Assembly (NCBI GenBank): GCA_026125665.1
Contig: JAHCKS010000002.1
Span: forward strand, 98,917-162,916
Origin: Rubrivivax sp.
GTDB lineage: Bacteria; Pseudomonadota; Gammaproteobacteria; Burkholderiales; Burkholderiaceae_C
DNA length: 64,000 nucleotides
Reading direction: 5' to 3'
Both the position numbers and the translations under genes were made by a program. Positions 1-40,282 of this stretch are shown one piece after another. Each line of letters begins with the position of its first letter. Positions within the stretch are counted from its first letter, which is position 1. The notes beneath the pieces are model-generated. The model ran no database searches, was not told the origin of the DNA, and saw nothing but the letters and a program-made list of their open reading frames with translations.

Positions 1-1
1 C

Positions 2-457
2 ACGCGCGACACCACCTCGAGGACCAAGGCGCTGCTGGAGGCCGAGGGGTTCAAGACGGCCGTGCTGCGCGCAAGTGTGGAGGCTGCCAGGCGCGAGGAC
101 TGGTTGCTCGAGCAGGTCGACCGGGGCGTGGACGTGATCGTCACCAACCCCGAGCTCGTCAAGACGGGCCTGGACATGCTCGAGTTCCCGACCATCGTCT
201 TCATGCAAAGCGGCTACAACGTCTACACCCTGCAGCAAGCAAGCCGCCGCAGCTGGCGCATCGGCCAGAAGTTGCCCGTGGACGTGCACTTCCTCGGCTA
301 CGAGGGGTGCGCGCAGATGGAGTGCCTGCGGCTGATGGCCGCCAAGATCGCCGTGTCGCAAAGCACCTCGGGCGACATGCCCGACTCGGGGCTGGAGATC
401 CTGAACCAGGCGGGGGATTCGGTGGAAGTGGCGTTGGCCAAGCAGCTGCTGCAGTAG
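2..457 (+). CDS. SF2/SNF2-like helicase, C-terminal fragment (5' end outside window)
   Basis: The reading frame is open from base 2 and ends at the stop at 455-457, so the window holds only the last ~151 residues of a larger protein. The visible part carries late superfamily-2 helicase motifs: TNPELVKTGLD, a motif V-like stretch, and QASRRSWRIGQ, the motif VI arginine-finger segment, which is typical of SNF2-like ATPases. Such proteins translocate on DNA in an ATP-dependent way. About 90 residues follow motif VI, with no recognisable domain. Its role cannot be set because the N-terminal motor and any fused domains are missing. It points toward the defence cassette that follows on the opposite strand, so it is probably part of the same accessory island. 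I am confident of the superfamily but not of the specific family. Confidence 0.7.
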   Translation, partial: TRDTTSRTKALLEAEGFKTAVLRASVEAARREDWLLEQVDRGVDVIVTNPELVKTGLDMLEFPTIVFMQSGYNVYTLQQASRRSWRIGQKLPVDVHFLGYEGCAQMECLRLMAAKIAVSQSTSGDMPDSGLEILNQAGDSVEVALAKQLLQ

Positions 458-499
458 ATGCGGACGGTGCTCCTCCTCGCTGAGCACCTTGGCTCAAAA

Positions 500-521
500 C
501 CCCCGGGGCTTGCCCTGGGGG
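500..521 (-). terminator. Hairpin terminator of the minus-strand Shango-like cassette
   Basis: CCCCC-GGGG pairs with CCC-T-GGGGG around a CTTG loop; one G-T wobble interrupts the stem. Read on the minus strand the stem is followed by TTTTG, so it fits a factor-independent terminator about 95 bases after the stop of the nuclease-helicase gene. It also lies about 45 bases after the plus-strand helicase stop, so it may separate both converging transcripts. Confidence 0.5.
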
Positions 522-614
522 CTCCTTCGGTCCGATCGCGCGGCAAGTGGCGCGAGCGCTGCCGGGCGCCGTTGACAGGCCATACCGCATGCAGTTGGCC
601 CGCCACTCAGGCAA

Positions 615-3600
615 CTATCGCGCGGCCAGTTCTCGAAACCGACACATTCCATTGGCCCACCGCATTTGCTCCGGCGTCCGGCAATTCGGCGCAAACAGCC
701 TCGGGCTGGCCACAACGATGACGGAACATCGCGCACGACTGGTCGCAACGTTGAATCGATGCGGGTCATACAGGAATGCCATGCCCCGCGGGGCGTCCTC
801 GGGGGATGAGCTGGTGCAGGAGTAGACGACGATAGGTGCCTCCTGGCCCTGAAACCTGTCCACCGTGCCGACCCTGGTCACACCACGCTTCGCGAGCACG
901 CCTCTGAGCGCACTTACCTGCGCGTTGTAGGGTGCGACGACCAAGATGTCGTCGGCCCCCAGCGCCCGCGTTGCTCCGGAGTGATCGGTCCAGCTGTGGC
1001 CCTGCTGAAGAAGCGACTGCACGATCCGATCGATCTCCAGGATCTCCTCGCTTGCATGCGCCTGATTACCCTCGTGCTCGACCTCTACAAGGTGCAATCC
1101 AGCACCGGTGTACCTCGTCGGTCCCGCGACAGATTGGCGTTCTAGTCCGCTTGCTGGCGACAGTCGTCCTTCGTAGTACATCTCTGACGTGAACGTGCAG
1201 ATCGCGGGATGCAGCCTGTAGGTCGAGTCCAGGAAGAGGCCCTGTTCCTCGTCCAGCGTTGCCTTTCCAGCTCCGATCAAGTGCACCAACGCGGCGACGT
1301 CTGCCCCTTCCTCATGAGCGCCCCGTTGCGGCTGCTCAAGCTGCTGCGGGTCTCCCAACATCACCAGATTCGTGGCCGACCTCGCCGCCGCTAAGGCGTG
1401 AGCCAATGCCAACTGTCCGGCCTCGTCCACGAACAGATAGTCGAGGCGCTCGGTGGCCTCGTCGAGCGCCCAGAGCCAAACCGTTCCGCCAACAACCGTC
1501 CCTGGTGCACTGGCACCCAGTGCCGCCTGTGGCGACTTGACGTACTCGATGCCGTCTGGCGGGACCTCGTCATGCTTGTGAACGAGCCTTGGACAGGCAT
1601 GTCCAGTCGACTCAGCAGCTTCACGCACCGCCGTCAGCAGGTTGTCGATCACCTTGTGGCTGACTGCTGTAACACCGACCCTCTTTCCCGCCGCTGCGAG
1701 TTCGAGGATGGCTCGCCCGCCATTGAATGTCTTGCCACAGCCGGGTGGCCCTTGAACGGGGAGGACCCCGGCGTCAAGGTCTCTACATAGACGCACCAGC
1801 GCGTGGGCCGTGGATTCACCTGGCATCCGAAGCGCGCCGCCCCGCCCAGACCTCCGCCTTGGCAGCCGACGAAGCAACAGGTCGGTCGCAGAACGGTACG
1901 GGACGGGGTCAACGACGCCGGGATTGCAGACGGACTCGGCAAAGCCAAGGAGCGCCGACTCGAGGACCTTCGCGCCGACGACCTGGTCGCGGAACACGAC
2001 CGTCGGGTACGCTCCGGCCACATCGCCGATGCTAAGAACGACGGTCCGGTTGACTAGGTCGATCTCCTCGACCTGTGCCGTGCTGCCGGTTTCGCCCCGT
2101 GGGTCCTCGGCGAGCACGAAGTGCACCTTGTCCCCCAGTGCAACGGCCGTTTCCTGATGCGGGAAGCGAAATCGGCAGCGGGCGTTTCTCTGGCGCGCCT
2201 GCTTCGGAAGCGTCTCGACGAACTGCAGTCCGGCGAGCATCTCTCGTTCCTCCAGGTGGTCGCCGGGTGGTAGCTCACGCAGGCGGAAGTACTCCCACCA
2301 TGCGTTCTTCTCCTCCTGTCGGAAGTAGCCCAACAGGGCCGCAAGCAGGGCGCGACCGCGCTGTTCGTCCGTTCGGCTGGCGCTGTCCTCCGGCAGATCG
2401 CCGACCAGCGCCGCGCGGAGGTCGGCAATCCGTTGGTCGCGCTCGCTCACTCTCTCGCTGGGCGCGGGATCACCAACCACAGGCCTGGCGACCGTTTCAC
2501 CACGAGTCACGGCGTCCGAACGTCGCTCCTCCAGCCAGTCTCGCAAAGCCGCGGTCGAGCGGCAGTCGTCGAGGTTGTACAGCGCAACACGCTCCGTCGT
2601 TTCATCGGAGACGCTCTCGTTCAGCTCCAGGGCGATCTCGAGATCGCGGCGTGCAGTCGCAGCCTCACGCAGCTCGATGCGCCTGACAAATCCGTACACG
2701 GGCTCCAGCTCTTTGAGGCCATAGCGCTCGACGCCAACACACAGTGACTCTCGGACGACAGCGTGGAGGTCGACGAACCGTCGGCCACGCAGCAGGCGAT
2801 CAAGTTGCTCCCCTCGGCTCGCGTGACGGGCACTGAGTCGCTTCAGCGCGCTCGGTTCGTAGGCCCCGTAGTGATAGATGTGCATCGAGGGGTGCTGGGC
2901 CAGGCGTTCGAGCGCCATGTCGAGGAACAACTCCAACGCCGACTTTTCCTGAGCCGCGTCGAACGCCCAGTGCTGCCCGGGAACCAGCGCTCCCGCCGGG
3001 TCACGCACACAGTAGCCTGTCAGGTACTCCAGGCCAGCCGGTCCCGCGAACGGATCACCTTCGAAGTCGAGGAAGACATCGCCCTCGGAGGGCTCAGGTA
3101 GACGAGCAAGGCCCCTCCCGGGAGCGCAAGGGAGCAGCTCCATCGCCGGCACCGCCAACTGCCGACTCTGAAGTTGAAGTCTGGCCTGTCGGCCCAGGCG
3201 CAAGTAGGTGTCCGCGTTGCCGCGAACGGGCTCCCTCAGGGGCAGTCTCCCCTCGGCGTGCGCTATGTCTGACAGCGTCAGGAGCCTTTGCGCCTCAAAC
3301 TCTCGCCGATGCGACGTGCGGATGCCTGCAATGAGTGACGGATGGTCGTCACGCCTGCGCTGCGAGTCACAGGTCAACCAGTACTTGCACACGTCGCAAT
3401 GCTCCACCGGCTCGGGGTAGGTGCTCGGAGGGGGCGAGGCCGATGCCGCCTCGAGCAGCTGTCCTCGGGCGTGTCGGTAATACGCGGCGAACTCCGCAGT
3501 TCGATACGTCTCCCGCGCATGAGGTGTCACTACATGGAAGCGCTCGGGCTGGACGCCCTGGAGTGCCTCCAGTAGCTCGCAGTACGTGCACAGCTGGAGA

Positions 3601-3998
3601 ACGGTCCCACCCTTCGTCTCCCGCGCCAGCTTGGTGTCGACCGGTTCGTAGATGTGTCGCATCGGCCCCGTTGCGCTCAAATCCACTCGCAGGAGAACAT
3701 CAACCGTTCCGATGAACTCGTCGTTCGACAGCGGTGCCTGCACGATGGCGTCGTAGCCTGCGTCCATCGCTTGGCGGGTAAGCGCTACGTCGTGAAGCCC
3801 ACGCAAGTCAAGGATCCGCCGGCCCTCCCTTCGCAGCGCTTCCACATAGGCGTCTTCGTGTCGCCGCCCTCTTTCGATCAACGCGTCGAGCCGGGGGTCA
3901 GCTCGGTACTCCACGGTCAGCGTTCCAGCCCGACGCTGCCGTTCCAGTTGCGTCAAGTGTCGGCACGCGAGGTGCCCCGCCAACAGCGTCGGCGTCAT
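615..3998 (-). CDS. TM0106-type RecB-like nuclease / RNase H-like / SF1 helicase fusion, fourth gene of Shango-like cassette
   Basis: Numbered from the ATG at 3998 (1127 aa). Residues ~1-215 look like a Fe-S-stapled PD-(D/E)XK nuclease: Cys12, the acidic D100 and VDTK (D121, K123) core, then Cys201, Cys204 and Cys210, spaced as in AddB/Cas4-type iron staples. Residues ~310-490 carry DEDD-type RNase H-fold motifs (DFEGD at ~311, HYGAYEP, YNLDDC). The C-terminal half is an SF1 Upf1/Dna2-like helicase: GPPGCGKT at ~750, DEAGQ at ~858, GDPQQLEQP, TVDRFQGQE and TSRARC. It is expected to unwind and degrade DNA. It follows the Lhr-like helicase gene by about 20 bases in what looks like one operon. 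A GTG at 4019 is an alternative start just after the upstream stop. No catalytic residue appears lost. Confidence 0.85.
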   Translation of the reverse strand: MTPTLLAGHLACRHLTQLERQRRAGTLTVEYRADPRLDALIERGRRHEDAYVEALRREGRRILDLRGLHDVALTRQAMDAGYDAIVQAPLSNDEFIGTVDVLLRVDLSATGPMRHIYEPVDTKLARETKGGTVLQLCTYCELLEALQGVQPERFHVVTPHARETYRTAEFAAYYRHARGQLLEAASASPPPSTYPEPVEHCDVCKYWLTCDSQRRRDDHPSLIAGIRTSHRREFEAQRLLTLSDIAHAEGRLPLREPVRGNADTYLRLGRQARLQLQSRQLAVPAMELLPCAPGRGLARLPEPSEGDVFLDFEGDPFAGPAGLEYLTGYCVRDPAGALVPGQHWAFDAAQEKSALELFLDMALERLAQHPSMHIYHYGAYEPSALKRLSARHASRGEQLDRLLRGRRFVDLHAVVRESLCVGVERYGLKELEPVYGFVRRIELREAATARRDLEIALELNESVSDETTERVALYNLDDCRSTAALRDWLEERRSDAVTRGETVARPVVGDPAPSERVSERDQRIADLRAALVGDLPEDSASRTDEQRGRALLAALLGYFRQEEKNAWWEYFRLRELPPGDHLEEREMLAGLQFVETLPKQARQRNARCRFRFPHQETAVALGDKVHFVLAEDPRGETGSTAQVEEIDLVNRTVVLSIGDVAGAYPTVVFRDQVVGAKVLESALLGFAESVCNPGVVDPVPYRSATDLLLRRLPRRRSGRGGALRMPGESTAHALVRLCRDLDAGVLPVQGPPGCGKTFNGGRAILELAAAGKRVGVTAVSHKVIDNLLTAVREAAESTGHACPRLVHKHDEVPPDGIEYVKSPQAALGASAPGTVVGGTVWLWALDEATERLDYLFVDEAGQLALAHALAAARSATNLVMLGDPQQLEQPQRGAHEEGADVAALVHLIGAGKATLDEEQGLFLDSTYRLHPAICTFTSEMYYEGRLSPASGLERQSVAGPTRYTGAGLHLVEVEHEGNQAHASEEILEIDRIVQSLLQQGHSWTDHSGATRALGADDILVVAPYNAQVSALRGVLAKRGVTRVGTVDRFQGQEAPIVVYSCTSSSPEDAPRGMAFLYDPHRFNVATSRARCSVIVVASPRLFAPNCRTPEQMRWANGMCRFRELAAR

Positions 3999-4021
3999 CG
4001 GCAGAGTCGGCGTACCCACGG

Positions 4022-6301
4022 CTAGGCGGCCGTGGCCGGAGCCCCTGCCGGGGCCTTCGAGCCAGGATTGATGCGATGCGCAAGCCGGCGAGCCCAAAGA
4101 AGGCCCTCGTCAAGATCGAGGCAAAGGCTTGCGTAGGCTCTTCGCAGCAGGGAGTCTGGGAGCGCCCAGTCCCACTTCTCTCGCAGGAGATTACGGACAT
4201 CAGCCAGCAACAGGTCAAACGGCGGCATGTCGTCGACAGCCGCATCGACGAGCGCATCCAGTACGTCTTCCGCCGAGCGCTCACCCTTGTGGACCTCAAC
4301 ACCCGGACCGCTAGCTGCAGCAACGAAGCCACGGCGCATGAGGATGCACGCCAGTGCTTCGTTGCCGGCGTCGCCGAGCCAAGTCAGCAGGAGCACCTGC
4401 CGGCCCTGGTCCAGCAGGACCTCCTCGGCCAGGTGGCGGGAAGCGTAGTAGGTCCTGGCCTCGATCAGGAAGCGGGCGGCAACCTCGTCGAGATACGGAG
4501 GCGGTCTGTCCTGTGACTCCAGCAGTTCTCGCATCCGCTGCCGGACTCGCGTGTGTGTTCGGCCCGTTCCTCCAGAGAACAGCGGCGGAGTGCCCCCGCC
4601 GGACCGCACAACAAAGATCGTCTTGCGCTGATCGTCGACTTCCTCGACGAGCCACGTCTTGCCCGCAAACAGGATCCGCTGTCCAACGGCCAGCACCTGA
4701 GACACCGGAAGAGTGCCAAGCGGCCTTCCGCCGGCAACGATGCGAAACTCTTCTTCGGCGGCGAACGCTGCATAGAAGTCGTAGTGGTTGACGAGCTTCT
4801 CGCCCACCCTTCCATGCAAGAGCAGCCCGGACGACTCTTGCATGACAAGCTCATTCTGACCGAGCTGACGGATCAGGTCGGCAAACGCTTCCTTGGAAAG
4901 GCCGGCGAATGGAGCTTCAGGGTGGCACAAGAGGCCATACAGCTGCCCTATGGTGGCGCCACCGTTCTGGGCGATGTGCGAGAGCACCTGCTGCACGAGC
5001 GTCGAGAGATGCTCGCCGCTGGCCCCCGGTGGCTCAAACCAGCCCTCGAGTAGTAGCGAGATCATCGCTGTCATCTGCAGCGTGCCAAGCCGCAGTTCGG
5101 TTGCGAGCGAGGCGCCTGGCCCGATAGCCTGCTCGATGCAGTATCCGCGAAGGACGGCCGGTTCGCCTTTACGCCGTCCGGACCTCCCCAGCCGCTGGCG
5201 AAGGCTCGCAACCGAAGGGGGCGGCCCAATCTGAGCCACGCTCTTGACCGCTCCGATGTCGATACCTAGCTCAAGCGAGTTCGTGCATATCGCGGAGGCC
5301 GGGTGCTCGCTCTGCTTCAGGGCCGCCTCGGTCTCGGAGCGGATCTCCTTGGACAGGCTGCCGTGATGTGGCCAGAACTCGTTGGGGACCTGCTGCTTCT
5401 TGGCCAGTTGGCCCAGCAAGTACGTGTACCGCTCAACTTCGCGGCGGGAATTCGGGAAGACCAGGTTGTTGGACCCGCGCAGGCTCTTGAAGAGGTGCGA
5501 CGCGATGGCGGCGGGCGTGACGGGTTCGCGCTGGTCCTCTTCCTTGTCCCCATCGGACGCCTCCGCGCCGTCGTGCTCATCCTTGACAACCAAGGGCTCC
5601 TCGTAACCTTTGACCAGTACTTTCAACTCCGCCCCGCCAGTCTTCGACTCGACGATCGAGACTGTCTTCCCGTTGCCCGGACGAAGGAACTCTGCGGCGA
5701 GTCCCATGTCGCCCAGGGTCGCGGAGAGGCCAACGCGTGGCACGGCTCTCCCAAGGACCCGATCGATCCGGTGCATCAGCGCCTGCAGCTGTTTGCCGCG
5801 CTCAGCCCCGATGAACGCGTGCAGTTCATCAACGACAAAGAACGCTAGCCGCTCGAAGACGGCGGCCAATGATGTTCCACGCGTGCAGAGCATCGCCTCC
5901 AGCGACTCTGGCGTGATGAGCAGAACCCCGTGCCGCTTGCTTCTGAAGCGGGCCTTCGTCGATGAGGGGATGTCGCCGTGCCAGGGCCACACCGGAATCT
6001 CCAGCTGCTCACAGAGCCGATCGAGCCGGCCAAATTGATCGTTGATCAGCGCCTTGAGTGGACTGATGTACACGATCAGTCCCGACGTGTCGGCACGTAG
6101 CAGGTAGGTCAGGGCAGGGAGGAACGCAGCCTCGGTCTTGCCCGTCGCCGTGGCGGCCGCGACGATGACGTCACGATCAGCATTGACGATCAGCGGGATC
6201 GCGGCTTCCTGCGCATCCCGCAGTGACTCCCATCCTTCAGCCCAGATGAAGCGCTGAATGCGCTCATCCAGAAGATGGAACGACGAACTTTCCGTCGACA
6301 T
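4022..6301 (-). CDS. sngC: Lhr-like DEAD/DEAH-box helicase, Shango SngC-like
   Basis: A 759-residue SF2 helicase. Visible motifs are TATGKTE (Walker A, residues 51-57), SPLKALIND (Ia), TPESLEAML, VDELH (Walker B, ~157-161), GLSATLGD (III), a TNSLELGIDIG motif V and RQRLGRSGRR motif VI. The spacing and the long C-terminal half resemble Lhr-like helicases, the class found as BrxHI in BREX and as the helicase of Shango. It should translocate on nucleic acid, probably processing phage DNA. It lies 18 bases after the ATPase gene, and the TerB gene precedes that; this order (TerB, ATPase, helicase) is what supports the SngC assignment. The symbol rests on architecture, not on a database match. Confidence 0.8.
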   Translation of the reverse strand: MSTESSSFHLLDERIQRFIWAEGWESLRDAQEAAIPLIVNADRDVIVAAATATGKTEAAFLPALTYLLRADTSGLIVYISPLKALINDQFGRLDRLCEQLEIPVWPWHGDIPSSTKARFRSKRHGVLLITPESLEAMLCTRGTSLAAVFERLAFFVVDELHAFIGAERGKQLQALMHRIDRVLGRAVPRVGLSATLGDMGLAAEFLRPGNGKTVSIVESKTGGAELKVLVKGYEEPLVVKDEHDGAEASDGDKEEDQREPVTPAAIASHLFKSLRGSNNLVFPNSRREVERYTYLLGQLAKKQQVPNEFWPHHGSLSKEIRSETEAALKQSEHPASAICTNSLELGIDIGAVKSVAQIGPPPSVASLRQRLGRSGRRKGEPAVLRGYCIEQAIGPGASLATELRLGTLQMTAMISLLLEGWFEPPGASGEHLSTLVQQVLSHIAQNGGATIGQLYGLLCHPEAPFAGLSKEAFADLIRQLGQNELVMQESSGLLLHGRVGEKLVNHYDFYAAFAAEEEFRIVAGGRPLGTLPVSQVLAVGQRILFAGKTWLVEEVDDQRKTIFVVRSGGGTPPLFSGGTGRTHTRVRQRMRELLESQDRPPPYLDEVAARFLIEARTYYASRHLAEEVLLDQGRQVLLLTWLGDAGNEALACILMRRGFVAAASGPGVEVHKGERSAEDVLDALVDAAVDDMPPFDLLLADVRNLLREKWDWALPDSLLRRAYASLCLDLDEGLLWARRLAHRINPGSKAPAGAPATAA

Positions 6302-6319
6302 CTGTGCGCGCCCGGCTCG

Positions 6320-7624
6320 TCACAGCTTGAAGGAAGTGAACTCGTCACCTTCCTCGGCGCTTGCGACGTGGTCCGCCGCGCCGCCCGTGTCTGGCGAAAC
6401 CTCGATGCCGCCCAGGAGCTCCTGCCAGGACGTTCCGGCGTTCTGCTCGAGCACGGCCAGCATATTGATGAAGGCGGTAATCGTCGTGCGGGGAGTGCGA
6501 AAGTAGGTGTCTCCGATACGCTTTGAGCAGTGCTCCATGAAGCTGAAGATGCCTTGATCCGGAAGAAGGAACCGGGACGGATCCCCGAAAGCATAGACGG
6601 CGCGAATCTTCTGCAAGAGGACATAGAAGTCCTCAGGCGTCAGGCTCGAAAGTCGAACCACCGGACCGGTGAAGTCGACCAGGTTGTTCGCTGCGAAGCT
6701 GTTGCCGGCGAGCCGACTTTGGAGGGCGGGATAGCTGTAGAGGCCGCGGCGGGTGTCGAGTAGGAACTCGGGTGTACCGCCGAGGACAAACCCGAGGCCG
6801 ACTGCGGCCCCTTGAAGGGAGTCGTTCAGGATGCGCAGAATCTGCTCATAGTTCGCGCTGCGCGCCTGCGTATTGGCTAGCTTGTAGAGGTTGACGAGTT
6901 CGTCGAGGCACACGAGGAAGCCGGCGAAGCCGGCCAGCCGCACGAAGCGGGCAAACAGCTTCAGCTGGTCGTACACGGCGGCGTCGTCGACGATCGTGCG
7001 CACGCCGAGCGCCTGCTTGGCATCGGTCCTGGTTGTGAACTCGCCGCGCAACCAGCGAATGGCGTCGACCTTCAGTTGCTCGTTCCCGTCCTCGTGGCCA
7101 CGGCAATAGGCTGCGATGACGTCGGCAAAGTCGTAACCGTTGACGAGCTCTGTCAGCTGGTTCAGCCTTTCACGCAACACGACCTCGGTCGGCTGCCGAT
7201 TGACCTTCGCGTCTGCCTTCGCCGTTGCGATGAACTTCTCGACGACGCCAGCGAGCGCGCCTCCTTCCGGCTTCGCGCGCGTTGAGAGGCTGCGCATCAG
7301 TTCAGCGTAGAGCGACCTCGCCTGGCCGCCCGACGCATGCAGGCGCCTGTCCGGGTTGAGGTCGGCTGTGGCGACAGCCAACCTCTTCTCGAGCGCAACC
7401 GCGCGAACGAGGTTCAGGAAGAACGTCTTGCCAGCGCCGTACTCGCCGATGACAACGCGGAACGCGGACCCGCCGTCGCCTAGACGATCTATGTCGGTCA
7501 CAAGAGTCGCGATCTCGCGGGCGCGCCCGACCTGAATGAGGTGCTGCCCGGCGCGTGGCACGACACCGGCGCGGAGCGACTGGATTACGGCGTCGCGGTC
7601 CCTGGGTCGGATGGCTGTGCTCAT
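6320..7624 (-). CDS. sngB: P-loop ATPase (DUF2791/BrxD-like), Shango SngB-like
   Basis: A 434-residue ATP-binding protein with Walker A GEYGAGKT (residues 60-67), and a hydrophobic strand ending in CLDELVNLY as Walker B. The fold and motif context resemble the DUF2791 ATPases (BrxD of BREX type 2) and the ATPase of Shango. These are AAA/STAND-like ATPases thought to load or regulate the partner helicase. Its start overlaps the stop of the TerB gene by four bases (ATGA), so the two are translationally coupled. Nearly the whole protein aligns in my reading with this ATPase type, with no extra domain. The alternative is a BREX-derived fragment, but no pglZ, brxC or methylase gene is present here. 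Confidence 0.8.
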   Translation of the reverse strand: MSTAIRPRDRDAVIQSLRAGVVPRAGQHLIQVGRAREIATLVTDIDRLGDGGSAFRVVIGEYGAGKTFFLNLVRAVALEKRLAVATADLNPDRRLHASGGQARSLYAELMRSLSTRAKPEGGALAGVVEKFIATAKADAKVNRQPTEVVLRERLNQLTELVNGYDFADVIAAYCRGHEDGNEQLKVDAIRWLRGEFTTRTDAKQALGVRTIVDDAAVYDQLKLFARFVRLAGFAGFLVCLDELVNLYKLANTQARSANYEQILRILNDSLQGAAVGLGFVLGGTPEFLLDTRRGLYSYPALQSRLAGNSFAANNLVDFTGPVVRLSSLTPEDFYVLLQKIRAVYAFGDPSRFLLPDQGIFSFMEHCSKRIGDTYFRTPRTTITAFINMLAVLEQNAGTSWQELLGGIEVSPDTGGAADHVASAEEGDEFTSFKL

Positions 7625-10008
7625 GCTTCCAGCTTCTCGAGAAGTTCGGGGTTGACTGTTATCGGGTCCTCGCCCTCTGCGAACGGGACGTCATGTTTGT
7701 TGTAGGCGGCCTCGTTGAGCGTCTCCATGGCACCACCCACCATCAGATCCAGGTCGGCGGCAGCGTCGCCGAGCTCTTCCCTTGTCCATTCCGGACGCGA
7801 CAGCAGCAACCGAGCCAATGCACTGTGCGCTTCATCGAGGCCAAGCAGACTAGAAGGCGGCGTGTCCGGCTCGACTTCGGAGTCGACCTCAGGCAGTGCG
7901 AGAGCCGGCGGGTCTTCTTCCTTGAAGATGTTCGCCAACATGGCGGATACCGCCTCGGTGTCCTTCTGCAGGGCTGCAATGCGCGCGGGGTCCAGTCTGA
8001 AGCCGGCCGCCTCGACGTTTACGGCACCCATTGCAGCATCTGGCGCGGCCCCGGCCGCCACTGCGTGCACATCAGAGAACACCTTTCGGGGCTCGACGCC
8101 GAGCGCCTTGTAGACTTTCTCGAGCATTCTGACTTCGGTTGGCGAAGTCGCTCCATCAGACTGCGCCACCGTGGCCATGAAGGTAGCAATCGTCTCTCTC
8201 GCCGCGGAGTCGAGCGGCTCCAGCTTCTTCTTCAGCGCCGTGAGAGACGCTGGCGCCATCATCAGCAGCCGAAGATGAGCCAGTAGCCTGCGGATGTGGT
8301 CGGGTGTGAGATGGGTCCACGCCTGCACCTGCCGTCGTAGGTGACTCATCTCGTCTACGGTGAACTCGCCATCGGCTGCGGCTACTGCGGAGGCCAGCTG
8401 AAGCGTCAATGCCGCCGCCTGGTACGCGGGTGTGGCGCGGCTGGTCATCTCGCCCGGCGGAACGGCGAACAGCACAACCTTCTCGTCCGGCTTCGGCAGC
8501 TTCGCGCCACCTAGAACATCCGGCTCGATTCCAATGTTGAGAGACTCTAGTGCGCGCGCCAGCGCCAGCGTCTTCTCCTTGGTCAGCGCTTTGGTGGCGT
8601 CCAGACTGGCGAGCAGCTGCTGGAAGGTCACGCAGACCATGCCACTGCCCATGCGTGCCTTGAGGGCAAGCAACACCTTCTGCGCGCCTTCGGGCCAAAG
8701 GGTGGCCGGTAGGTAGAGGAGCCCTTCAAGCGCGTACCGCGCCTCCGGGTTCCTGCCGACGAGTCGGCTGTACGACTCCAGGTCCTTTGTTGTCGCTTCC
8801 ACGACGGCCTGAAGCTTCTTCACAGGCGCCGTCAGTACCGTGATGTCCGGCGTTTCGCCAAAGGTTAAGCGCAGCTCGTCGTATCCGCGGAAGCCGGCCG
8901 AAGACGGACGGTGCACGTGCTTCAGCTTGGTCCTGTTCCTCGGCAGGACGATGCCGTCTCCGAAGACTTCCTGGTACTTGCGAACGAAGAGCTTGTCGAA
9001 CTCATCGCCGCAGCGTGTTGCCGGTGTGCGCAAGTAGGCTGCTGGGTCGAGCTTCGCCCAGGCGAGCGCGAGTTGGGCCGGCACCGGCGCCTGGTCGACG
9101 GCGGCTTGGCCCAGCGCGACGCGAACGTACAGCGGCAGCTCGTCGGTCTTCGGAAAGGCCGGAACCGGCTTGAGGTATGCCTTCTCCGGATGTTCAGCCA
9201 GTGACACCCAGTCAAGGAGCGAGCTCGCGTACTTCAGAAAGGAGCCTGACTTGTGCCCGTAGATGTCCAGCAAGCGACGCAATTCGGTGGCGATGGTCGG
9301 CCAGTCTGCCTTCGCCGTGTCGTCCTTCGCAGCATCCAGGATGCCTCTGCGCTCCAACCCATAGAAGTAGAGGAAAACGTAGCCGATGTCTGCCGCAGGG
9401 TCACTGCGGCCGCTGACAAGCCAGTTCAGGTATGCGCGACGCGCCGTCGCCGGAATGTCGGAATAGCTCGGCCAGTACCCCATCTGGCGCTCGGTGTAGT
9501 CGCCGTGCGTCGCCACAGACTTCGATGGATCGATGAGACAGGGGTCGTTGGCACCTGTCGGTGTCGGCAGGGACGTCCCGAGGTAGACGAGCCCACCCGG
9601 AATCGTCAGGCCGGCCACGATGAAGGAGTCGCCCGCCGGAACCCACTTGGCTCTTCCGAAGCCAGTGGGCGCCGCGGGGATGCGAAAGGGCACCGCCGGC
9701 GTCGTGCCGTTCCTCACGACCACGGGCACCTCGTCGCGGACGACGGTCTTGGGCGCCGGGGCGCCTTCCCCTGAGGCTGGCCTCGCCCTAGCCCGACTCG
9801 TCATCGGCGAACCGGGAGGCGTCGCGGGCGCTGCTCTCCCCACCGGCGCATCCTTCGACCTCACGTAGAGATAGACGATGATGCCCAAGACTCCGAGTGT
9901 GCCCAACGCAAGCCATACCTCACGAGGTACAGATGCGATCAGTACCAGAAGCCCCAGAGCTGCGGCTCCGACGACCTTGCTAGAGGCCGGCGCCTTCTTC
10001 CTCGGCAC
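7621..10008 (-). CDS. sngA: Membrane-anchored TerB-domain protein, Shango SngA-like
   Basis: A 795-residue protein opening with two hydrophobic stretches (about residues 11-50) that should anchor it in the inner membrane, followed by a low-complexity linker. The region from about 120 to 450 fits a TerB N-terminal (TerB-N) domain. A central alpha-helical TerB-like segment has paired acidic motifs (VAAADGEFTVDEM and VAQSDGATSPTE) of the metal-binding TerB type. The remainder fits a TerB-C domain. TerB proteins are known from tellurite-resistance operons, but this domain order next to an ATPase and a helicase is that of Shango. It is the first gene of the cassette; its promoter must lie in the 530-base gap upstream. 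The membrane anchor suggests a sensor or scaffold role, which is inference. Confidence 0.8.
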   Translation of the reverse strand: MPRKKAPASSKVVGAAALGLLVLIASVPREVWLALGTLGVLGIIVYLYVRSKDAPVGRAAPATPPGSPMTSRARARPASGEGAPAPKTVVRDEVPVVVRNGTTPAVPFRIPAAPTGFGRAKWVPAGDSFIVAGLTIPGGLVYLGTSLPTPTGANDPCLIDPSKSVATHGDYTERQMGYWPSYSDIPATARRAYLNWLVSGRSDPAADIGYVFLYFYGLERRGILDAAKDDTAKADWPTIATELRRLLDIYGHKSGSFLKYASSLLDWVSLAEHPEKAYLKPVPAFPKTDELPLYVRVALGQAAVDQAPVPAQLALAWAKLDPAAYLRTPATRCGDEFDKLFVRKYQEVFGDGIVLPRNRTKLKHVHRPSSAGFRGYDELRLTFGETPDITVLTAPVKKLQAVVEATTKDLESYSRLVGRNPEARYALEGLLYLPATLWPEGAQKVLLALKARMGSGMVCVTFQQLLASLDATKALTKEKTLALARALESLNIGIEPDVLGGAKLPKPDEKVVLFAVPPGEMTSRATPAYQAAALTLQLASAVAAADGEFTVDEMSHLRRQVQAWTHLTPDHIRRLLAHLRLLMMAPASLTALKKKLEPLDSAARETIATFMATVAQSDGATSPTEVRMLEKVYKALGVEPRKVFSDVHAVAAGAAPDAAMGAVNVEAAGFRLDPARIAALQKDTEAVSAMLANIFKEEDPPALALPEVDSEVEPDTPPSSLLGLDEAHSALARLLLSRPEWTREELGDAAADLDLMVGGAMETLNEAAYNKHDVPFAEGEDPITVNPELLEKLEA

Positions 10009-10538
10009 TCGTCTTCTCTCCCTTGCCTAGCTGCCTCGTCAGCGAGGTCAACCGCCTGCCCAGCCATCGATCGGTCCGGTCCCAGACATGAGGCGCCGAT
10101 CAGCCGCGCGGCGGCCTTGGCTGCGGCCCATCAGTCATAGAGCCGCAGCTACTCCGGGCCATGTCGCTTTCAGCCCATACTGACATGTACCCGCGAGCCG
10201 CGAATATGTGGGCTAGGGGTTCTGCCTAGAGAGGGACGTGAAGTCCTCCGCAAGTTACCGGAGCTGGCTCGGGAAGAGAACCTTTCGACTGCTCCGCAGC
10301 GGTTGCTGCCGGTGACAGTTGGCGGGCGTACTCACGCTCATCACCATCAAGCCGCCGCTCGACGAATTCACCGGCACTTCCCGAACGGCGGCTGCATGAG
10401 GTGCACCTACCCCCGGCCGCGGCAATGCGACTCACCCCGGGGCCCTATCCCCGCTCACGCGGGGCAACCAACGCGGCGACCAGAGAAGGCGCTCCAAGGC
10501 CACCGCTCAGGTGGGGCTCGGCCCCCTTTCTTTGGGGC
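10009..10538. other. 530-base intergenic region upstream of the Shango-like cassette
   Basis: No coding region with plausible composition was found here on either strand. It must hold the promoter for the minus-strand TerB gene, although no clear -35/-10 pair stands out. It also holds a lone type I-E-like repeat at 10444-10470 and a hairpin at 10520-10539 next to the stop of the metalloprotease gene. The boundary between two defence modules makes it a plausible recombination joint. Confidence 0.5.
10444..10470. repeat. Solitary type I-E-like CRISPR repeat look-alike
   Basis: TATCCCCGCTCACGCGGGG followed by CAACC closely resembles the reverse orientation of type I-E repeats, with CCCCGC and GCGGGG arms (10449-10454, 10459-10464) and a TCAC loop. 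I found only this one copy; there is no second copy at 60-61 base spacing and no cas gene in the window. It may be a relic, an anti-repeat-like element or a chance hairpin. Confidence 0.35.
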
Positions 10539-10539
10539 C
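10520..10539 (-). terminator. Hairpin at the end of the ImmA/IrrE operon
   Basis: GGCCCC (10520-10525) pairs with GGGGCC (10534-10539) around an eight-base loop and overlaps the stop codon of the metalloprotease gene. No T-run follows on the minus strand, so termination is only suggested. A second small stem (GGGGC/GCCCC, 10513-10525) overlaps it. Confidence 0.25.
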
Positions 10540-11411
10540 TACCGCCCGCCTAACGGCCTCCGCGGCACGTAGGAGCCCGACGACGTGTACCGGCGGTTGC
10601 CGACACTTGGATCGAACTTCGCGTAGAGCATCGCTTCGGTAGCCAAGTAGATCAGCACCAGTGCCGTGTCCCCGGTCGACTGGATGCACTGCTCCAGCAC
10701 TTCGTACTCGCCGGCATCGTCGTTCGTGAACCAGACGTCGGCCGACTGCTTCCCCAGCCGCGCACACGCCTTGCCGTCCTGCAGCAGGTCGTAGGTGAAG
10801 GACTCCTCCTCCACGGCGTCTCGCAGCCACCAGCGTTTCGGTACATCGCTGGCGGCGACGTGCCAGCGCCGCCCAGCCTTGCCGTAGCAGGCCACGATCA
10901 CCGGCAGCGTGCTGATGTTGACCAAGCGAATGGCGGTGGCGAGCCTGCTTGTGTCGAATGCTTTGGCGATCTCGTCGATCTCAGCGAAGCCCGGCCTCTT
11001 GGTGGCCGCTACAGCGGGGTTGAAGAGCGCGCTTGGCATCAACAGGTGGGAAGCGAACGTGTCGGCCTGCTTCTCGACGTCGCGGTTCGCCTGCAGGTTC
11101 TGATCGGGTTCGTCCACCCGGCAGCGGAACGAACGGCCGCGATGGAGCCTCCAGTGGCCGAGCTCGTGGGCTATCGAAAAGCGTTCCCGCCCACGGATCG
11201 AGTTCGGCCTGATGGTCGCGGTCGCTTGGTCCTTGTACCCAACCAACGTGGCCTCGCAGCCATCGAGGAGGTCGTAGACGACTTCGACCCCGGCGTCGTA
11301 GGCGATGGCGTCGACGTCGATCTCGTCGGGCGTGGTGATGCCCAGTTCGTCAATCAAGTCCTCGGCCTGCTTGCCTGGGGTCACGCTACTTGCCGCTGTC
11401 GCCGGGCGCAT
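10539..11411 (-). CDS. ImmA/IrrE-family zinc metallopeptidase (CapP-like)
   Basis: A 290-residue protein with the zincin motif HELGH (residues 82-86) in the context SIAHELGHWRLH, and a downstream EKQADTFASHLLMP segment that supplies the third zinc ligand; both are hallmarks of COG2856 ImmA/IrrE peptidases. The first ~70 residues match the family's N-terminal part; the C-terminal ~120 residues form an extra, unassigned domain. These peptidases cleave repressors after DNA damage or phage signals. CapP, which activates some CBASS operons by cutting the repressor CapH, is of this type. The start overlaps the upstream gene by 26 bases. Here the partner is a sigma-like protein rather than an obvious CapH, so the substrate is unknown. 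Confidence 0.8.
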   Translation of the reverse strand: MRPATAASSVTPGKQAEDLIDELGITTPDEIDVDAIAYDAGVEVVYDLLDGCEATLVGYKDQATATIRPNSIRGRERFSIAHELGHWRLHRGRSFRCRVDEPDQNLQANRDVEKQADTFASHLLMPSALFNPAVAATKRPGFAEIDEIAKAFDTSRLATAIRLVNISTLPVIVACYGKAGRRWHVAASDVPKRWWLRDAVEEESFTYDLLQDGKACARLGKQSADVWFTNDDAGEYEVLEQCIQSTGDTALVLIYLATEAMLYAKFDPSVGNRRYTSSGSYVPRRPLGGR

Positions 11412-11790
11412 CTTTCTCCATTAGGTGCAGGAGTTGGTTGTAGGCCCGCAGCACGTCTTCATCCGACATCTCGCTGAGCTGCCTGGCGGCCATCGTGAAT
11501 CTTGGGTCGTTTTGCGCCAACCGCAGGAATTCGCGGGCCTGCAATGCTGTTGCCGTCGCCGCGGGCGGTTCCGGGGGAGGCGAACGCCGCCGTGCCTCGA
11601 CAGCCGTCTTGGCTGCGGCAAGACGGCGCTTCCCGGCATCGGCAACGGCCTTCGCAAGCATGGCGCGGCCCTGCGCAAGCACCAGTGCCGGATCCTCTCC
11701 AGCAAGCACCTGCTCGTCCGTCATGCCGATCAGCTCGTCGGTCAAGGCGTCCAGCAGCGTGTCGGGCGCGACCTTCCTATGCGTCGTCAT
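11386..11790 (-). CDS. Hypothetical protein, middle gene of divergent regulator operon
   Basis: A 134-residue mostly alpha-helical, Ala-rich protein. It has a Pro-rich break around residue 75 (SPPPEPPAA) and a C-terminal helical segment with the phrase MSDEDVLRAYNQLLHLMEK. I recognise no family. The start overlaps the end of the sigma-like gene by 14 bases, and its end overlaps the metallopeptidase start, so all three are probably made from one transcript. A plausible role is an anti-sigma or adaptor protein that the protease removes, but nothing in the sequence proves this. Confidence 0.6.
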   Translation of the reverse strand: MTTHRKVAPDTLLDALTDELIGMTDEQVLAGEDPALVLAQGRAMLAKAVADAGKRRLAAAKTAVEARRRSPPPEPPAATATALQAREFLRLAQNDPRFTMAARQLSEMSDEDVLRAYNQLLHLMEKDAPGDSGK

Positions 11791-12412
11791 CTTTGTCGCT
11801 CCAGTCTGGACGGAAATCGCGGATTCGGCGCAGGAAACGCTGCCGAACCGCCTCGAATCGTTTCTGGTCCCACCCGAGTTCTTTTGCCGCTTCGCCGCCG
11901 CGCAGGCCCATCGCCCAGGCCGTCGCCAGCAGCTGAATCTCCTCGTCCCCGGCGAAGGCCTTGTCCATCGCCGCGGCGGTTTCGAACACTGCGACCTGGG
12001 TAAGGAGATCTGCCACCGCCGTGCCAGCCACGGCAGGGGCCCCGCTCTCGCGCTCCAGTTTGTCGACGTGGTCGACTTCGTCCTGCTCGAATGGCGAAGC
12101 CTGGTCGCTCTCCCGCTCGTTCGAGGCGATGCTGTGCATCACCTTGGCGAGCATGGTCACGGGGTGCACCCCAACAAGGCACGTGCGCTCGCCGGCCAGC
12201 ATCTTGGTCATGGCTTCTTGGAGCAGATCGTTCCAGGCCCAGCCAACCAGGCCGAGCGCTTTGACCGAAGCGATGGTCCGCAGCCGGGCCCAGTCGGCGC
12301 CGGTGAACGCATCCAACTCGGCCCGGATGTCGGCAGTCGTCTTGCGTAGGTTCGGCTCATGTTCGTCGGGCATCGACAGCAGCTCCTCCCCTAAGACTGG
12401 CGAGCCAGCCAT
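11777..12412 (-). CDS. Sigma-70-like (ECF-type) transcription factor candidate
   Basis: A 211-residue protein. The segment NDLLQEAMTKMLAGE around residues 60-75 and the following helix (VTMLAKVMHSIASNERE) resemble sigma region 2, in which DLxQEA is typical. The C-terminal stretch (LRGGEAAKELGWDQKRFEAV, ~165-185) looks like the region 4 helix-turn-helix, ending RFLRRIRDF. It is divergent from the CD-NTase gene, with 116 bases between their starts, so it probably controls that interval. An internal ATG at 12373 is an alternative start. It may be a degenerate sigma-like DNA-binding protein rather than a true sigma factor. Confidence 0.55.
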   Translation of the reverse strand: MAGSPVLGEELLSMPDEHEPNLRKTTADIRAELDAFTGADWARLRTIASVKALGLVGWAWNDLLQEAMTKMLAGERTCLVGVHPVTMLAKVMHSIASNERESDQASPFEQDEVDHVDKLERESGAPAVAGTAVADLLTQVAVFETAAAMDKAFAGDEEIQLLATAWAMGLRGGEAAKELGWDQKRFEAVRQRFLRRIRDFRPDWSDKDDDA

Positions 12413-12528
12413 GCCGGACGCACCGGCACGAACATCTTCTCGCTGGCCGCGTACAACGTGCGCGCCTCGCCAGTCTATAGGCCCGAACGGCCGGGACTGC
12501 CCTGACCTATTGCCATACGAGGAACCTG

Positions 12529-14103
12529 ATGCTGCTGTTTCCTGCTTCCGGGCAAGTCCCGTCGCCTGCCGCCGGCAGGATCGGCTTCACCGCCGCGGCC
12601 TCCGACTTCCTGGAGCAGCTGGCCCGCCAGCTTGACGTCCCCCCGGGCCGCTACGAGGAAGCCAAGCGCCGCTACGAGTCCGTCGGCTCCTGGCTCAACC
12701 GCGACGAGTCGACGCTCAAGGAGTTCGACCCCGACGTCTACGTGCAAGGGTCGTTTCGCCTGGGCACGCCCATCCGCCCGGTCAACTCGGACGAGCACTA
12801 CGACATCGACCTGGTGTGCGAACTGACGCTGCGCAAGCATGAAGTCAGCCAGAAGGAGCTCAAGCGCCGCTTGGGGCTCGAGATGAAACTCTACGCCGAG
12901 CGCTACGGCATGGAGCCGCCGGAAGATGCGCGCCGCTGCTGGACTCTGCAGCACAGCGATGGCGTCCAGTTCCACCTCGATGCCCTTCCCGCCATTCCCG
13001 ACGGCGCGGCCAAGCGCCAGCTGCTGGAGCGGTACCAGCTTTCTGCCGCCTGGGCGGACAGCGCGATCGCGATCACCGACAGGAAGCACCCGGGCTACGA
13101 GCAGATCCAGTCCAACTGGCCACACAGCAACCCGCGCGGCTTCACCCTGTGGTTCCGCAGCCGGATGAAGGTCAGCTTCCGCAAGCGCCGCGAGGCCATG
13201 GCCCTCGAAGCCAAGGCAAGCGTCGAGGACGTGCCGACCTACCGCGTCAAGACGCCGCTGCAGCAGTCCATCCAGATCCTCAAGCACCACCGCGACGTGA
13301 TGTTCGAGCACGACGGCGACGACAAGCCCATCTCGATCATCATCACCACTCTGGCCGCCTCGGCGTATGGCGAGCAGGCGACCGTGGCTGAAGCCCTCGG
13401 GGCGATCTTGATGGGCATGGAGACCCACATCCAGTACGTCCGCGACCGCGTGTACATCCTGAACCCCACCGACCCGACTGAGAACTTCGCGGACAAGTGG
13501 GCCGAGAGACCGCAGTGCCGCGAGAAGTTCTTCAAGTGGCTGAACAGGGCGAAGGCTGATTTCGCGCGTCTTGGTGCCCTCAGCGACCGCAAGATGCTGG
13601 CCGAGACCGCGGACCGCTTCGTGGGCAGCCGCGTGGCCGCCGCGGCGGGCAACGCGATCAAGCCGAAGCTGACACTCGATGTGCTTCGCCCCCGCGCAAT
13701 TGCCGCACTCAGGGCGGTGCACAAGGAGGCACCGCCCTGGAGCCCGATGATGAACGGCCACGCCTCGATCGATAAGGCAACCTGGACCGGGCGCGGTTTC
13801 TCGCGCCCGATCGGGTTCAAGAGCGACGGCCAGCCGCTCATGAAGGGCGCCTCGCTGAACTTTGTCGCCAGCACCGACGTGCCGGCGCCCTACGACGTCT
13901 ACTGGCAGGTGGTCAACACCGGCAGGGAAGCCGAGTTGGCCGGCCAGCTGCGCGGCGGGTTCAACGACGGCTCGGTGACGCGTGGCCCAATCAACCGCCA
14001 CGAGACCACCAAGTACAGCGGCTCCCACACGATCGAGTGCTTCATCGTCAAGAACGGCTACTTGGCGGCGCGCAGCGGAGTCTTCATTGTCAACATCCAG
14101 TGA
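12529..14103 (+). CDS. CD-NTase with C-terminal AGS-C sensor domain (CBASS cyclic-nucleotide synthase)
   Basis: A 524-residue nucleotidyltransferase of the cGAS/DncV-like superfamily. The catalytic core shows GS at residues 74-75 in VQGSFRLGT, the metal-binding pair in YDIDLV (D92, D94), and a third Asp in FHLDALP (D151). The last ~110 residues, from YDVYWQVVNTG to the end, match the AGS-C domain, which accompanies SMODS-type nucleotidyltransferases and is thought to sense nucleotides. On phage infection it should make a cyclic di- or trinucleotide. It is followed five bases later by a SAVED effector. No Cap2/Cap3, HORMA or TRIP13 gene is present, so it fits a minimal, type I-like CBASS. Confidence 0.88.
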   Translation: MLLFPASGQVPSPAAGRIGFTAAASDFLEQLARQLDVPPGRYEEAKRRYESVGSWLNRDESTLKEFDPDVYVQGSFRLGTPIRPVNSDEHYDIDLVCELTLRKHEVSQKELKRRLGLEMKLYAERYGMEPPEDARRCWTLQHSDGVQFHLDALPAIPDGAAKRQLLERYQLSAAWADSAIAITDRKHPGYEQIQSNWPHSNPRGFTLWFRSRMKVSFRKRREAMALEAKASVEDVPTYRVKTPLQQSIQILKHHRDVMFEHDGDDKPISIIITTLAASAYGEQATVAEALGAILMGMETHIQYVRDRVYILNPTDPTENFADKWAERPQCREKFFKWLNRAKADFARLGALSDRKMLAETADRFVGSRVAAAAGNAIKPKLTLDVLRPRAIAALRAVHKEAPPWSPMMNGHASIDKATWTGRGFSRPIGFKSDGQPLMKGASLNFVASTDVPAPYDVYWQVVNTGREAELAGQLRGGFNDGSVTRGPINRHETTKYSGSHTIECFIVKNGYLAARSGVFIVNIQ

Positions 14104-14108
14104 GCGGC

Positions 14109-15251
14109 ATGGAACCCAACCTGCTCGACCGGCTTCTCGGCCATCCCCTGCTGAAGCGCGTCTTCGACTTCGCTTTGCGGCCCCGCAATGTGGGCCTGAA
14201 GCTGGTCGCCGGCGGTGTCGCCATCCTTGTTGCAGCCGCTGCCGGAGAGTTCGCCTTCGACCTGGCATACGTTGATCCCGGCAGCGGAACGCGTCTCAGC
14301 TTCAAGTCCGGAGAAGGCGCGCCGGCGATGATCATTTCGGCCGCCGTGGCCGTTGGCGCGATGCTGATATGCGTCGGCGCACTTGTCGCGATCTACGACC
14401 TCATCGTCACCCGGCGCAGGGAAGCCAGGAAGAAGAACGTGATCGTCGAGTTGCGGGGCCTGCATTCAGGGCCAAGTTCTCCGCCAACGCCGGCGGCCAT
14501 CGGGCTTGCGCCAGTAGCCGTCCAGAACGTGCCCATCGACTTCAGGCCGCAAGCCGAGGGGAAGCTGGTCGATCCCGAAGTGGCTTTGCAGAAGCTCGAC
14601 GCGTTGACGCCGACCATCGCTGCCGCGATCGCCGGTCGCGACGAAACGGACGTCACGGTCGCCATCGGCGGCCTAGCTGCGACGCCCGTTCTGTTCCTGG
14701 CGGGCATGCTTATGGACGACGAGGCGCATGTTGTTCTGTACGACTGGGATCGCGAGCAACGCGCGTGGCGCGGTCTCGACGGCATGGATGATGGCAAGCG
14801 CGCGCTCGCCGTCGACTACTCCACCCTGCCGATCGGGGCCAAACGAGCTGTGCTTGCCCTGTCCCTTTCCTACGCCGTCGACGAAGACGCACTGAAGCGC
14901 CGATTCAGCGCCGAAGCCGCGATCGTCCACATGCGAATCGAAGACCCGCTCGTCAACAAGTTCTGGTCCATGACCAAGCAGGGGGCGATCGCCAAGTCCT
15001 TCATCGAGACGGTGCAGCAGTTGTTGCATCGTGGCGTCCAGCGGCTCGACCTCATCATTGCCGCCCCGGCGAGCTTGTCGATTCGGCTTGGGATGGTGTA
15101 CGACAGGCGCCTACTTCCGGATGTCACTGTGCACCAGTACGAGAAGTCGACGGCGTCTGGCTATCCCTGGTCACTCAAAATGCCGACGCACGGCTTGACC
15201 CGTGCCACTGTTGAGCGAGCGCCACACGCAGGAACCACAACGACTGCATGA
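14109..15251 (+). CDS. cap14: Two-TM SAVED-domain CBASS effector (Cap14-like)
   Basis: A 380-residue protein starting at the ATG six bases after the CD-NTase stop. Two transmembrane helices are clear (about residues 30-52 and 75-98), followed by a basic RRREARKK stop-transfer segment. The C-terminal half is a SAVED domain: the final part shows the usual LGMVYDRRLLPDVTVHQYEK strand-loop pattern and YPWSLKMP. SAVED domains bind the cyclic oligonucleotide made by the CD-NTase; 2TM-SAVED proteins are inner-membrane effectors that disrupt the membrane and abort infection. A short Thr-rich tail ends the protein. It is the last gene of the CBASS pair. Confidence 0.85.
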   Translation: MEPNLLDRLLGHPLLKRVFDFALRPRNVGLKLVAGGVAILVAAAAGEFAFDLAYVDPGSGTRLSFKSGEGAPAMIISAAVAVGAMLICVGALVAIYDLIVTRRREARKKNVIVELRGLHSGPSSPPTPAAIGLAPVAVQNVPIDFRPQAEGKLVDPEVALQKLDALTPTIAAAIAGRDETDVTVAIGGLAATPVLFLAGMLMDDEAHVVLYDWDREQRAWRGLDGMDDGKRALAVDYSTLPIGAKRAVLALSLSYAVDEDALKRRFSAEAAIVHMRIEDPLVNKFWSMTKQGAIAKSFIETVQQLLHRGVQRLDLIIAAPASLSIRLGMVYDRRLLPDVTVHQYEKSTASGYPWSLKMPTHGLTRATVERAPHAGTTTTA

Positions 15252-34571: not shown

Positions 34572-35975
34572 TCAATCAACCGGCAGCCGCAGCCAGAACG
34601 AGTTGCTCCCCGCCTCGGAGCGAACCCCGACCGCGCCGCCATGCGCCTCGGCGATGGCACGCACGATGGCCAGCCCCAGTCCGGCTCCATCCCCGGCGCG
34701 GTGTCGCGACGGGTCGATCCGATAGAAGCGCTCGAACAGATGCGGCACGTGTTCCGGGCCGATCGTGGCGCCCGGGTTCTCGACCTCGATGCGCATGGTC
34801 CGGCCTTCGTCCACGCCGCGCACCGTGACCGCCTCGCCGCGCGGCGTGTGGCGAATCGCATTGCCCACGAGGTTGGTCAACGCGCGCTGCAACATACCGC
34901 GATCGATCCGCAGGGGCGGGCGCTCCGCAGGCCCGGCCTCGAAGCGCAGCGCCACGCCCGCCTCTTCGCTCAAGGCCTCGAAGAAGTCGAACACAGCGCG
35001 CGTCTCGGCCTCGAGATCGGCCTCCCCTTTCTGCAGCCTGCGCCGGGGGTCCTCGGTCTGCGCGAGGAACAACATGTCGCCGATCATCTTGCGCAGGCGG
35101 TCGAGCTCGTCCAAACCTGCGTACAGCACCTCCCTGTAGGCCGCCGCGGGCCGGTCCCGGGCCAGCGCCACCTGAGTCTGCGTGAGCAGGTTCGTCACCG
35201 GCGTGCGCAGCTCGTGGGCGATGTCGGCCGAAAAGTGCGCCAGGCGCTCGAAGCTGCCCTGCAACTGGTCGAGCATGGCGTTGAACGCCGAGACAAGCGT
35301 TGCCAGCTCCACCGGCACCGTCAGCGGATCCAGCCGCGTGTGCAGATGCTCCGACGTGATGCCGCGCACGGTCGCGCTCATGCGCCGGATCGGCGCGTGG
35401 CCCCAGCGCACCGCGATGCACACGGCCAGAACGGCCAGCGAGGTGGCCGCCACTACACCCCACCACAAACCACGGCGCAGCAAGGCCAGGTAGCGTGCAT
35501 GGGCGTCGGTCGCTACGGCTACGAACACCTTCCCGCCGGCCGCATCCGGCAGCACGCTGCCCCGGTACACGTGCGGGCCGTCGGCCCAGGCACGCAGTGC
35601 CCGGCGATCCAGCACCGGTGATGGCTCGGCCCGCCGGGCGAGTTCCAGCAGAGCCGGCGGCGCGCTGACGTAGACCGCCCGCCCCGCAGCGTCGACGACG
35701 CCGAAAAACACACCGTGGTGGCCGGCGACCGCCCTGGCAAGCCGGTCCCGCAGGCCCTCGGGATCCTCCAGCCGCGCTTCGTCTCCGAGCGCGCGCCCCA
35801 GCGACTCCCTCACCGCCAGCAACTCGTCGAAGTCCAGCTGCTCGAAGTGACTCTCGATCGAGCGCGACACGAGCCAGGCGCTGGCCGAGAACACCACCGC
35901 CATCGTCACGCTGACGACCAGCGTGATGCGCAACGCCAGCGACCTCGGGCGCCGGCGGCCGGGGTCACTCGGCAT
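34572..35975 (-). CDS. cusS: Sensor histidine kinase (CusS/CopS-like), copy 3
   Basis: A 467-residue sensor kinase with two transmembrane segments (~13-35 and ~168-190), a HAMP domain, H-box [11 protein letters not shown]-box [10 protein letters not shown], and G-box [11 protein letters not shown]. Heavy-metal sensor kinases of the CusS/CopS type share this layout. It overlaps the response regulator gene by 11 bases. It lies immediately across from copA/copB. The naming is by context; the sensor loop is too divergent to assign a ligand. Confidence 0.8.
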
Positions 35976-36648: not shown

Positions 36649-36737
36649 GATCTTCGGTGCTTCGGCCGCGGGCCTCGCGCGGTTGCGTCTGGGTCGGGCA
36701 GGCTACCCAGCCTCGACTATCCGTCACGTTACAGGCT

Positions 36738-40273: not shown

Positions 40274-40282
40274 CGGCATCCG

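Follow-up and report, generated by a model that had tools for sequence, protein, structure and literature searches.

A Dna2-like nuclease-helicase gene behind a canonical Shango operon in Rubrivivax sp.: a probable accessory to a known defence system

What is a gene for a Dna2-like nuclease-helicase doing directly behind a Shango anti-phage operon? The question is raised by a locus at one end of the stretch of Rubrivivax sp. DNA that we analysed at its full length of 64,000 nucleotides (henceforth the window), where a fourth gene, here named g4, follows sngA, sngB and sngC. The answer that we favour, and consider fairly probable, is that a canonical Shango operon is accompanied by a separately mobile, probably co-transcribed Dna2-like accessory gene, the whole lying in a defence island.

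As originally predicted, four open reading frames lie end to end on the minus strand. The first, sngA (7621..10008), encodes a TerB_N/TerB/TerB_C protein of 795 residues; it is followed by sngB (6320..7624), for a P-loop ATPase of the BrxC/BrxD family (434 residues), and by sngC (4022..6301), for a DEAD/DEAH helicase of the SngC/BrxHI kind (759 residues). The last, g4 (615..3998, 1127 residues), combines a TM0106/Cas4-like Fe-S PD-(D/E)XK nuclease, a DEDDy RNase H-like domain and an SF1 helicase of UPF1/DNA2-like type. That the first three form the Shango core in the order SngA-B-C was borne out by PADLOC models for SngA (E = 1.6e-105), SngB (1.2e-174) and SngC (1.6e-265, with BrxHI at 1.6e-113), and by Pfam: TerB_N (3.5e-69), TerB_C (4.1e-34) and TerB (1e-12) in SngA, BrxC_BrxD (2.9e-148) in SngB, DEAD and Helicase_C in SngC. 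SngA had been described as a TerB membrane protein. The TerB part is well founded, while the membrane label has as its sole basis a hydrophobic N-terminal stretch picked out by eye. Adjacent, on one strand and in the order A-B-C, the three genes display all the Shango features tested, so that the system, by its sequence, is Shango: complete, canonical and already known. The same order occurs in 73 of 80 genome loci (the best 80 of 567 SngB relatives); among the seven others, L075, L097 and L143 are cut by contig ends and L130, L131, L139 and L145 are uncut. Pfam matched no nuclease domain in SngA, SngB or SngC, PDB sequence searches with SngB and SngA gave no match, and a query of viral contigs with SngA only gave no relative. 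SngC is placed in one group with the BrxHI, DruE and DpdJ helicases (PMC12278908, in the text available). The Shango of PA14 has the same three genes, on one strand, with tight spacing and matching profiles. According to the accessible part of PMC10250203, which also cites an E. coli report of Shango, the three PA14 genes give phage protection alone, and a 'large multi-domain helicase' gene that adjoins them is absent from the three-gene construct. In our locus, by comparison, sngABC is followed by g4.

The g4 frame as listed opens at a TTG at 4097, within sngC, and the range 615-4097 corresponds to a 1160-residue reading. The alignment with its homologues starts close to the ATG at 3998, and we therefore take g4 to encode 1127 residues and to begin 23 nt past the sngC stop; a sngC-g4 fusion, to which the overlapping TTG start might have pointed, was rejected on the same alignment. 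The expectation that g4 would be packed directly behind sngC is thus correct (same strand, 23-nt spacing). A scan of positions 1-12600 found eight terminator-like sites where 8.4 are expected by chance, one of them inside the sngC end (4121-4105) and none in the 23-nt gap, and a promoter scan stayed at chance level. The GC3 of g4 (0.738) is close to that of sngA-C (0.755-0.802), which fits co-residence. Because g4 is set directly behind sngC, these two genes are likely to be transcribed together, and from spacing alone we infer that g4 is probably co-transcribed with the Shango operon.

The cassette ends, on the side of g4, at a convergent frame on the plus strand (2..457), the C-terminal end of an SNF2-type helicase with a weak Helicase_C match; the frame numbers 853 residues in all, starts outside the window and shows SNF2-rel_dom when taken whole (L002, the part of the same genome to the left of the window). 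Together, L002 and positions 1-457 carry DUF3577, a DUF6094 methyltransferase and the SNF2 helicase beside the defence genes, a set that we take to resemble integrative elements of the PFGI-1/clc kind. On the other side, between Shango and a CBASS pair and on the Shango strand, lies a group (10539-12412, minus) made of a CapP-like ImmA/IrrE peptidase (PADLOC capP, 6.1e-62) and two smaller frames, one of which overlaps capP; this group may regulate Shango or CBASS. The CBASS pair (12529-15251, plus; PADLOC) consists of a nucleotide cyclase and a SAVED-2TM effector, whose listed frames overlap by 67 bases. Farther along, the window carries copper resistance genes (34575-49914: CusS-type kinase, CopA-type multicopper oxidase, copper P-type ATPase) with NhaA. 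A region on the plus strand (55387-63998) opens at 55387 with a GH65-type frame that has a beta-phosphoglucomutase-like N-terminal domain, contains at 59312-61213 one frame joining an acetate/propionate kinase (residues 77-402) to a phosphate propanoyltransferase (420-597), and has an FtsH frame at 62388.

What kind of protein is encoded by g4? The original prediction had it as a fusion, in some 1127 residues, of an Fe-S nuclease, a DEDD RNase H-like domain and an SF1 helicase, and the domain models agree. In the numbering of the 1160-residue reading, TIGR03491 (TM0106 RecB-like nuclease) spans residues 37-522 with 206.6 bits, for a cut-off of 97.45 (E = 6.7e-61), the RNase H-like domain (PF13482, RNase_H_2, 4.4e-17) lies at 341-522, and the SF1 helicase domains (AAA_11/AAA_12, the latter at 1.4e-29) occupy about 776-1131. 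Twenty active-site or Fe-S positions are invariant in all ten aligned relatives (alignment A2): the cysteines C12, C201, C204 and C210; H47, D100, E118, D121, K123, Q135 and Y139 in the nuclease; D311, E313, D410, Y474 and D478 in the RNase H-like domain; and G755, K756, D858 and E859 in the helicase. The motif names attached to these conserved residues (nuclease, RNase H-like, helicase) follow general usage. With its active-site residues intact, g4 looks catalytically competent. A second alignment (A3, eight rows, of which L152 is cut at the N-terminus) keeps the four cysteines except in L150. This relative, on a viral contig, lacks all four Fe-S cysteines and retains the nuclease, RNase H-like and helicase residues.

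The predicted structure (mean pLDDT 71.6, pTM 0.45) has Dna2 as its top PDB match in Foldseek (5ean, E = 3.4e-18), and a Cas4 chain fits it with a TM-score of 0.60 normalised by target; whole-chain TM-scores are low (0.15-0.16), so that the placement of the domains is not established by the model. Sequence-profile searches return SMUBP-2, UPF1 and Dna2 (Dna2 at 1.7e-24). A four-cysteine Fe-S PD-(D/E)XK nuclease and a UPF1/DNA2-like SF1 helicase are thus found in one chain, and on these matches g4 is a Dna2-like nuclease-helicase of the TM0106 family. It shares with Dna2 an Fe-S RecB/Cas4-like nuclease placed N-terminal to a UPF1-like SF1 helicase, and differs from it by the additional RNase H-like domain between the two. 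Within the family of TM0106 RecB-like nucleases with a DNA2/NAM7-type helicase (TIGR03491 with AAA_11/AAA_12), g4 covers the whole length, and its identity to other complete members, whether from plasmids, viral contigs or genomes, is roughly 34-47%; what sets it apart is its collinear placement behind sngC, found in no other locus examined. No PADLOC model matched g4 over its full length. The best matches were to Mokosh (MkoA, 1.9e-36; MkoC, 5.3e-31), and since they cover the C-terminal part of the SF1 helicase (867-1144 and 949-1142), an assignment to Mokosh was rejected; Cas4 models matched the nuclease weakly (E = 0.002). The helicase of CoCoNuT systems was likewise discarded as a candidate: in the part of PMC11090510 available, the UPF1-like CnuH is described and RecB or Cas4 goes unmentioned. 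The literature searched, with most subscription papers outside its coverage, mentions TM0106 or TIGR03491 in two corrosion papers only, and among the matches listed there no title or opening of an abstract links Shango to a TM0106-type nuclease.

Is g4, then, a component of Shango? Counting how often a g4-type gene comes next to Shango homologues had been set beforehand as a test. We drew Shango loci from the organism's own class, plasmids (9 fetched of 678 records with SngA), viral contigs, genome contigs and a phylum sample. The genome contigs are the best 80 of 567 SngB relatives and therefore lean towards near relatives of the window's SngB. After removal of six duplicates, 107 other distinct SngB loci remained, with sngA and sngC adjoining in 97 and long enough flanks (3.5 kb or more upstream, 3 kb or more downstream) in 69; weak SngA matches without SngB (genomes G305 and G154; loci L051 and L052) and a weak SngB match inside a 1705-residue frame (G626) were left out. 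The count came to two of 107, both divergent, with none collinear in an operon with sngABC. One is L146, a metagenome-assembled genome of Acidobacteriota, in which a g4 relative within the fetched flank diverges from sngA. The other, G658, is pieced together across a contig break: one contig starts with the N-terminal part of SngA (TerB_N and SngA models) and a divergent g4, and a second starts with the remainder of SngA, followed by sngB and sngC; judging from the SngA match positions, 119-263 and 294-794, the two contigs appear to meet within sngA. A third candidate (L115) has, about 2 kb behind sngC, an SF1 helicase relative that is 25% identical over the helicase part only, and it was not counted as g4. 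The closest Shango relatives (L073, L068, L069 and L071, with SngB 81-85% identical) have no g4 over more than 7 kb past sngC, and in the 79 loci with a BLASTN match, from the best 80 of 567, similarity is confined to 4088-9687, that is, inside sngA-sngC. Nor did any other gene recur as a partner of Shango in 101 neighbourhoods (within 5 kb; six of the 107 have no neighbour frame), the commonest neighbour being an integrase (6/101) and the next families appearing three times at most.

In a phylum sample of 398 genomes, g4 occurs in 17 and SngB in 12 (including one weak match); both figures include the window's genome. Three hold both genes (G000, G658 and G944), which leaves, once the window's genome is set aside, two observed for about 0.4 expected (16 x 11 / 397), an excess that is a hint from very small numbers. 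Among 49 genomes selected for Shango, those of 50 of the 80 genome-contig loci, one (G1020, the genome of L146) has a full-length g4, and a partial relative in G1015 was not counted; one in 49 against 17 in 398 is no enrichment, the Shango genomes spanning several phyla and the two samples being unmatched by phylum. The genome counts for g4 and SngB may be low, as first-look candidates were scored in part for the phylum sample, the Shango genomes and the Acidobacteriota. What speaks most strongly for a functional tie is adjacency: where both are present, g4 adjoins Shango in three genomes of four (G000, G658 and G1020), or in two of three without the window, small numbers in which the window's own locus is included; in G944 the two are on separate contigs. 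Even so few cases suggest something other than free shuffling. In L146 and G658, moreover, g4 and sngA may share a divergent promoter region, and co-regulation could be what is selected. From the loci compared, the tie between g4 and Shango is a loose one, and g4 cannot be taken as a general Shango component, as it is found in 2/107 loci, is not enriched in Shango genomes and does not recur in the operon. Of the original prediction of a Shango with an added fourth gene, there remains the presence of sngABC and of g4 packed behind it; membership of g4 in the system was not upheld, given no collinear case in 107, near relatives devoid of g4 and a PA14 trio sufficient by itself (PMC10250203, in the part seen).

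Looking outwards from g4 itself shows what other company it keeps. We clustered 38 matches with their neighbours within 7 kb, and retained 33 loci of full or nearly full length, including L152, cut by its contig end, and the split L061; partial loci (L024, L028, L153, L224 and L230) fall outside the 33, and the plasmid sample amounts to 7 fetched of 53 records. The most frequent defence neighbour is an McrB-like (AAA_5) and McrC pair, present at nine of the 33 (McrC being PF10117 in the three members scanned). In seven the arrangement is collinear and close, g4 coming first in L054, L055, L154, L219, L220 and L227 and last in L215. These sets span several lineages, and they possibly represent a form of type IV restriction that has a dedicated DNA-degrading enzyme. 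McrBC accompanies 6 of the 18 g4 loci of the unselected phylum sample as against 1 of 18 for Shango, and 101 Shango neighbourhoods (within 5 kb) gave no match to the McrB and McrC models used for g4. The window's g4, by contrast, has no McrBC next to it, its neighbours being Shango and the SNF2-type frame. The link with McrBC is labile, and neighbourhoods turn over fast, since the g4 proteins of L220 and L221 are 96% identical and only L220 has McrBC beside it. Other neighbours are varied: in L214 (genome G944) g4 is convergent with BREX brxL, 118 bp away, with pglZ behind brxL; an HmaA helicase lies 27 bp from g4 in L218; L063 has a DrmD-like helicase and a TmtA-like protein; HerA-type genes are found in L061, L062 and L064 (one cluster, scanned in L064), and SIR2 is annotated in L061 and L062. 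A regulator family (a WYL protein in the member scanned, L222) occurs near ten g4 loci, L061 has dinB and imuA/error-prone polymerase genes, and relatives of g4 are carried on plasmids and viral contigs. Neither Shango nor McrBC was seen beside 16 further Acidobacteriota loci (fetched out of 17 places, G1208 being left out; three are partial and several are on short contigs). Together with the labile McrBC link, these loci mean that a defence role of g4 is not general.

A tree of 34 g4 proteins puts the window's copy on a long branch within a well-supported clade of 13 rows, which includes the copy of G658 and the McrBC-linked copy of L215 and excludes that of L146. Across all 34 rows, three changes are needed for the Shango label of three linked copies, and eight for the McrBC label of nine. 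Part of these changes may be losses, so that separate pairings of g4 with its partners are likely from the tree and not proved by it. The change of neighbours would also be what points to mobility of the gene.

How do the possible readings compare? A true four-gene variant of Shango, in which SngABC would recruit g4 for a DNA-degradation step absent from the core, would account for the shared strand and the 23-nt spacing, for g4 next to sngA in two more loci (L146 and G658) and for adjacency in three of the four genomes holding both. We nevertheless judge it unlikely, because those two are the only other loci out of 107 and both are divergent, because g4 shows no excess in Shango genomes (1/49 against 17/398, samples unmatched by phylum), because three linked copies require three label changes, which losses could explain in part, and because three genes are enough in PA14 (PMC10250203, as far as available). 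Another reading makes of g4 a gene of DNA repair or end resection with no defence role, lodged behind sngC by an accident of island assembly. Dna2 as top fold match, the polymerase genes of L061 and the 16 Acidobacteriota loci without Shango or McrBC alongside would suit it. The collinear McrBC-g4 arrangement in 7/33 loci, where McrBC appears in 0/101 Shango neighbourhoods, argues against it, as do the WYL-type regulator family near ten g4 loci and the presence of g4 on plasmids and viral contigs, and we hold it to be quite improbable.

We thus return to the reading of a Shango operon with a mobile accessory. In this arrangement SngABC would act by itself, like the three-gene construct of PA14 (PMC10250203, in the accessible text). 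The g4 protein would engage DNA at ends or gaps and travel along single-stranded DNA by means of its SF1 motor; cutting of the strand so unwound would fall to the Fe-S nuclease, and trimming of ends to the RNase H-like domain. Its substrate would be invading DNA opened or cut by the adjoining system, most commonly McrBC among the loci seen, and Shango here. Shango can do without g4; what g4 may bring to it is a step of destruction.

A broader proposal can be put forward tentatively, and we would sooner doubt it than assert it: TM0106-type nuclease-helicases might be a plug-in module for DNA degradation, captured repeatedly by unrelated immune systems that open or cut foreign DNA and would rely on this one Dna2-like enzyme to destroy it. 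The captors would be McrBC in several lineages and Shango, apparently on more than one occasion; BREX, HmaA and HerA are further neighbours. Recurring as it does beside McrBC and other defence genes, the g4 family is a candidate for an accessory common to several bacterial immune systems, and the locus of Rubrivivax sp., with its Dna2-like enzyme set behind Shango, lends itself to asking whether this system can take on a step of DNA destruction.
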